A stretch of DNA of 64,000 bases from assembly GCF_024692365.1 (NCBI RefSeq), contig NZ_JAILMR010000109.1:29582-93581 (forward strand). The letters run 5' to 3'. Origin of the DNA: Ruminococcus sp. Its GTDB lineage: Bacteria > Bacillota > Clostridia > Oscillospirales > Ruminococcaceae. This document shows, piece by piece, positions 22,290 through 22,802 of the stretch (its first letter is position 1; each line of letters starts with the position of its first letter). Position numbers and translations under genes: made by a program. Under the pieces are notes generated by a model that had not been told where the DNA came from, did not search any database, and saw nothing but the letters and a program-made list of their open reading frames with translations.

Positions 22290-22529
22290 ATCAGTTTCAT
22301 TCCATACGATATCATTATAACACATTATCTTATAAAAGTAAAGCCCCAATAAGGCACACTTACGTAAATCAAAGTTCATAAACAACTAAGTATAAACTGC
22401 CAAGGAGAAAAAGCGCACGGTCAAACCTCTTTCCAATTCATAATTATTGGCAGGGTGGTAACTTCGATGTACTGAAATAAGATTGTCACTAACAGAGCTT
22501 TTGAAATGTTTGAACGATCAGCATAGCAT

Positions 22530-22770
22530 ATACCAAGATGTACGACAAACTACAAAAGCGGTAGGAACTCATATAAAACAATACGTAGGCACACTGCTGA
22601 TACAGTCCTGATACCCAAATATACGAACTCATACCAAACGATACGAACAGCTACCAGAGTTTACCACCTATCCATAAATCATACGTAGGCTTACGAAATG
22701 ATACCAAACCATACCAGAAGATACCAAGCTATACCAAACGATACGAACGTATACCATAGAATACAAAAAA
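22530..22770. repeat. Degenerate decamer array, about 24 units of ATACSAANNN in near-constant 10-bp phase
   Basis: Successive units: atacgaactc ataccaaacg atacgaacag ctaccagagt ttaccaccta tccataaatc atacgtaggc ttacgaaatg ataccaaacc ataccagaag ataccaagct ataccaaacg atacgaacgt ataccataga atacaaaaaa (22621-22770), extending left to 22530 with 1-bp phase slips. Confidence 0.85.
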
Positions 22771-22802
22771 CAGCCCCGCCGAAAAGCGGAGCTGTAAAAC
22801 TT
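22766..22802 (-). terminator. Rho-independent terminator of GH25 gene
   Basis: Minus strand ACAGCTCCGC-TTTTCG-GCGGGGCTGTTTTTTG. Confidence 0.85.

Follow-up and report, generated by a model that had tools for sequence, protein, structure and literature searches.

A phased decamer array in a Ruminococcus genome resembles the intragenic repeats of DUF6291 genes and may titrate a putative replication initiator

We identified an array of degenerate decamers (ATACSAANNN) in a 64,000-nucleotide stretch of Ruminococcus sp. DNA, hereafter the window, and the same phased decamer recurs inside genes of the DUF6291 family, which match the PHROG category “replisome organizer”. We see about an even chance that the window array belongs to a dispersed set of iteron arrays that are putatively bound by DUF6291, do not fire, and probably titrate or tether this initiator. 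The initial annotation had proposed selection or expansion at the period of one helical turn and a phased protein-binding platform; this is the reading we favour, with DUF6291 as the candidate protein in view of the shared decamer.

The region 22530–22770 of the window contained 20 TAC cores, each at a position equal to 1 or 2 modulo 10 (22531, 22541 and 22551; 22582; 22601; and 22612 to 22762 free of slips). The 1-bp slips described earlier near 22560 and 22600 were present. Self-matches at lag 10 numbered 108 (z 5.8), whereas 1000 dinucleotide shuffles gave 69.0 ± 6.7 and at most 92; lags 20, 30 and 40 were likewise raised, and this was the top lag-10 stretch of the window with no close second. 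A chain-of-units score reached 96 for 21 units, against 7.5–10.6 for the best chains in shuffled whole windows. The 10-bp phase over about 240 bp, and the autocorrelation proposed as a check on it, were thus confirmed, and the estimate of about 24 units proved slightly high, with 20–30 bp lacking clear units at both 22580–22610 and 22662–22682. Because TRF recovered at best 6.5 copies at 69% match and the units are degenerate, we rejected a simple tandem satellite or VNTR, in keeping with the earlier view that this is not a simple perfect satellite. No real gene was found over the array among the open reading frames checked, and a chain scan identified no inverted partner for it within the window. 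The array abuts the GH25 terminator, upstream of the lipoprotein and two-component genes, as had been noted, and this terminator rather than an AT-rich tract is its next neighbour.

Features of the decamer array and adjoining sequence (positions within the window)
Feature	Position	Strand	Basis
Species-specific insertion, ~370 bp net, absent at the same site in relatives	22330..22762 (approximate)	.	Alignment of relatives
Left flank of composite dispersed repeat, degraded (AATTCATAATTATTGGCAGG...), boundaries approximate	22380..22529	+	Alignment
Decamer array ATACSAANNN, iteron-like, ~21 degenerate units, 10-bp phase	22530..22767	+	Sequence, chain score, autocorrelation
First part of array, inside degraded copy of composite dispersed repeat (ATACCAAAATGTACGACAAACTACAAGAGCGATACGAACTC...)	22530..22600	+	Alignment
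Second part of array, beyond composite-repeat consensus, phase unbroken from 22612	22601..22767	+	Sequence
GH25 terminator hairpin, conserved in relatives lacking the array	22767..22797	-	Sequence and alignment

The search for phased runs across the host genome (3.68 Mb, 140 contigs) was strongly positive, returning 100 exact phased unit pairs compared with none for the reversed control, and 272 pairs at one mismatch or fewer compared with 14 for the control pattern. Counting the window array, we fetched and read at least 55 array loci in this genome. None of the 398 genomes of the host's family approached the pair count of the host, and counts were otherwise near background; our literature searches returned nothing specific on such repeats in Ruminococcus. 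Most arrays were intergenic, with gaps of at least 80 bp representing only ~9% of the sampled sequence. Based on heuristic gene calls in the fetched stretches, the flanking gene arrangement was not far from background: 14 arrays sit between divergent genes, co-directional and convergent gaps were used roughly as in the background, and distances from array to start codon varied widely.

Several loci of this set had features of their own. Inverted array pairs, which could form long hairpins, surround the palindrome ATACGRYCGTAT at L021 1465–1587, L024 498–610, L026 6970–7088 and L036 1603–1684. The claim that the repeat is non-coding holds in the window and fails elsewhere, where in-frame decamers occur in the linkers of DUF6291 and of two other proteins, a ComEA-like HHH protein and a secreted protein (L032 927–1805 and L030 7559–8557). 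In the latter two they encode peptides such as IPNDTK, and relatives have linkers of different sequence and similar length. The Y1 transposase loci of the host genome were free of decamers; with no inverted partner to the window array either, a REP/RAYT system was rejected.

Scans for three phased units returned simple repeats and a set of phage and prophage genes of one family, DUF6291; motif hits outside Clostridia, for the most part simple repeats close to perfect, were not considered further. Because this first search was by motif, we collected DUF6291 genes anew by protein profile. The 10-bp periodicity of the linker was raised in 17 of 20 representatives compared with other stretches of the contig that holds the gene (each at p < 0.05). 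Chain consensi were ATACGAACG, ATRCSAA and similar motifs, and the decamer variants within these genes include ATACGAACGN, ATGCGAACGC and CAACGATCGT. In the typical linker, 4–8 decamers preceded a final step of exactly 9 bp, after which came an AT-rich tract. This last step leads to a TRCCAATAW-like unit in most phage genes and in the DUF6291 gene of the host; the tract in phage genes is composed of AT-rich hexamers, with lags 6, 12 and 18 raised in the linker. Unit frequencies were A.82, T.99, A.94, C.97, S.94 and A.92 in the chromosomal arrays, in line with the decamer consensus ATRCSAANNN, and A.90, T.94, A.89, C 1.0, S.86 and A.93 in phages; both sets were aligned on the same core, which makes the likeness of the cores partly circular, and the phage periodicity was tested core-free.

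In phages the DUF6291 gene lies among SSB-like and helicase-like genes or adjoins an annotated helicase loader. The AlphaFold model featured an N-terminal domain of three helices, predicted with high confidence, and a disordered linker encoded by the repeats. A fold search with this model matched no known fold, DNA-binding folds included (best E 3.3), so a DNA-binding fold of DUF6291 was not confirmed, and we found no mention of the family in the literature searched. Separately, complete-looking intergenic origins of the DUF6291 type, with decamers and a 6-bp AT-rich tract, occur in four loci from Clostridia MAGs, of which one is labelled goat ileum and another sheep rectum (L062 5074–5110, L096 154–180, L101 1635–1680 and L120 1964–2020). 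No DUF6291 reading frame was present in these four fetched loci, and they are possible natural decoys or satellite origins.

The host genome contains one DUF6291 gene (C72:58021–58839), divergent from genes for an HlyD-type adaptor and an ABC transporter. Its position is syntenic in four species and phage genes are absent nearby, indicating a non-prophage gene; dN/dS of its N-terminal domain was 0.07–0.24. Viral relatives of the host protein are distant (27–35% identity), and no recent phage donor was found among them. Among the fetched array loci and the window, this gene was the only case of an array located inside a DUF6291 gene; DUF6291 coding sequence was absent from the window and from all other fetched array loci of the host genome, and we therefore rejected a prophage remnant. 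The host gene carries 8 matching decamers, the 9-bp last step included, and its orthologs carry 5, 3 and 2. Array pairs in the respective genomes, with the control count in brackets, were 272 (14), 80 (8), 24 (6) and 21 (15), the last hardly above control. Array abundance thus roughly tracks the number of decamers in the DUF6291 gene; the correlation is weak at its low end (21 vs 15) and is suggestive only, because the four species form one clade and are not independent. The ortholog of one relative resides on a 352,646-bp contig (L217) with the look of a secondary replicon; this chromid-like contig bears dnaK-, dnaJ-, grpE- and purF-like genes, named by eye.

The left part of the window array belongs to a composite repeat that is dispersed in this clade and has become degraded here. 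This repeat, ~240–400 bp in length, covers 22380–22600 of the window and occurs at some 40 further sites of the host genome. Relatives with a 96–97% identical lipoprotein beside the same GH25 gene are missing ~370 bp, the whole array included, and retain the GH25 terminator hairpin. The window copy would accordingly be either young or lost in these relatives. Because the site is empty in the closest relatives and the other arrays do not clearly favour any gene arrangement, the GH25 gene and the lipoprotein operon, whose location had been given correctly, are incidental neighbours; regulation of the lipoprotein operon was rejected as the reason for the array on the same absence. Elsewhere, arrays are shared between species, and three species have one where a chorismate-mutase-like gene starts. 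A rumen metagenome contig gave a 274-bp match of 98.9% identity, in which the single change inside the array concerned fell on a spacer base.

From the shared decamer we infer that DUF6291 would bind these arrays and that titration could follow. The decamer would be the presumed DUF6291 binding site, multiplied across the chromosome with the other origin parts left out. Each helical turn would hold one DUF6291 molecule or half of a dimer, and a filament would form along one face of the DNA. Neighbouring units alternated between C and G at position 5 in 229 cases, compared with 174 expected, and this 20-bp beat would fit a dimer. The 9-bp last step was absent in 56 of 56 chromosomal arrays, which were counted for this step, and the AT-rich tract was absent at the window array, where its presence was checked. 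Because the terminal step and the AT-rich unwinding tract are missing, the arrays are expected to bind the initiator and not to unwind or fire. They would then titrate or tether (“handcuff”) the stand-alone DUF6291 of the cell and also, in the event of infection by phages that share these iterons, the phage protein; by analogy with lambda, such titration or tethering is the most likely role. The target may be the host DUF6291, that of an infecting phage, or nothing at all, and in a cell that does not express DUF6291 the titration would be trivial. A more specific proposal, which we regard as rather unlikely, is that the host took over a phage replisome organizer and multiplied its iterons over the chromosome, without the origin tail, as a sponge that keeps DUF6291 phages from replicating or adjusts how active the host copy is.

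The chief competing explanation is a dispersed repeat that is neutral or selfish, whose decamers derive from DUF6291 iterons or just resemble them, are of no use to the cell, and spread through slippage, gene conversion and hitch-hiking with the composite mobile repeat; we consider it possible, although on the doubtful side. It accommodates the copy numbers of the composite repeat in five species (42, 30, 27, 17 and 9), the insertions of 110–370 bp facing empty sites in relatives, the independence of array positions from gene arrangement, and one orthologous site with 11 units here and 43 in a relative (L225 1034–1460), the latter with a 40-bp higher-order repeat. Arrays within the composite repeat could merely hitch-hike. 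It is less readily reconciled with the persistence of core bases: the commonest base was kept in 0.932 of composite-repeat copies at core positions compared with 0.829 at spacer positions (permutation p 0.0016), a sign of constraint that is supportive rather than proof because the consensus itself served to define the core and the copies are related to each other. Nor would it predict that the phase is held across divergent units, that a conserved DUF6291 gene goes with the arrays, or that the array in the secreted-protein linker grades in place from clear to degenerate between species, with segments of equal or nearly equal length.

Other roles appear less probable. A platform on which DUF6291 or another protein controls transcription of neighbouring genes would suit the intergenic location, the helical phasing and the 14 arrays between divergent genes; we consider it improbable, given the background-like use of the other gap types, the variable distances to start codons, and the absence of the window array in close relatives with the same operon. 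Contiguous phased sites resemble partition and origin iterons, and this likeness, together with the replicative character of the DUF6291 family, would fit functional sites for replication or segregation served by DUF6291, such as extra origins, restart sites or centromere-like sites. The terminal 9-bp unit missing from every array counted, the terminator in place of an AT-rich tract at the window array, and the presence of many arrays in only one of four species make such sites more improbable still. Least probable of all, and very much so, is a structured RNA, or DNA that is intrinsically bent and has no protein dedicated to it. Some arrays elsewhere do form long inverted pairs and the minus-strand fold of the window array gave z -2.18, but the plus strand gave z 0.38, the window array lacks an inverted partner, and neither version accounts for the agreement with the repeats inside DUF6291 genes. 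The repetitive RNA suggested in the initial annotation is therefore not favoured.

The titration or tethering reading has parallels in characterised systems. The O gene of phage lambda houses the lambda origin, composed of iterons and an AT-rich tract (PMC7466680), and DUF6291 genes similarly have repeats inside the putative initiator gene, then an AT-rich tract, between the N- and C-terminal parts. Additional copies of the lambda origin bring lambda replication to a halt (PMC4488673), and lambda iterons lacking the AT-rich part are enough for interference, with oop transcription also required (PMC3349717). In contrast to lambda, DUF6291 has no shown kinship to O, its repeats are contiguous and 10 bp long rather than 19 bp with spacers, and the array decamers are dispersed over the host chromosome without the AT-rich tract, as checked for the window array. 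PER (phage-encoded resistance) decoys, such as the Sfi21 non-coding region in Streptococcus thermophilus, are thought to bind incoming replication proteins (PMC6356513) and likewise represent origin-like DNA inside the cell. PER is an infection-activated, copy-number-dependent replication origin, whereas the arrays are chromosomal, degenerate and many, and lack the unwinding tract (checked for the window array); any phage protection by them is hypothetical. In DnaA titration on the bacterial chromosome, sites remote from the origin bind the initiator and do not fire (PMC12371093), which resembles the putative role of the arrays; these differ in initiator, site and contiguous helical phasing. 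As for REP/BIME elements, tens of copies are intergenic, some are palindromic, and one species far exceeds its relatives, but the arrays consist of head-to-tail decamers in strict 10-bp phase and Y1 transposase genes have no decamers nearby.

These results tie an unexplained dispersed repeat to DUF6291, a named but uncharacterised family, and predict both a binding site and an origin anatomy for it. The arrays are possible natural origin-iteron decoys, of a kind known so far mainly from plasmid experiments and prophages. If true, the sponge proposal would describe a system against phages or for replication control that is built from DNA repeats instead of genes.
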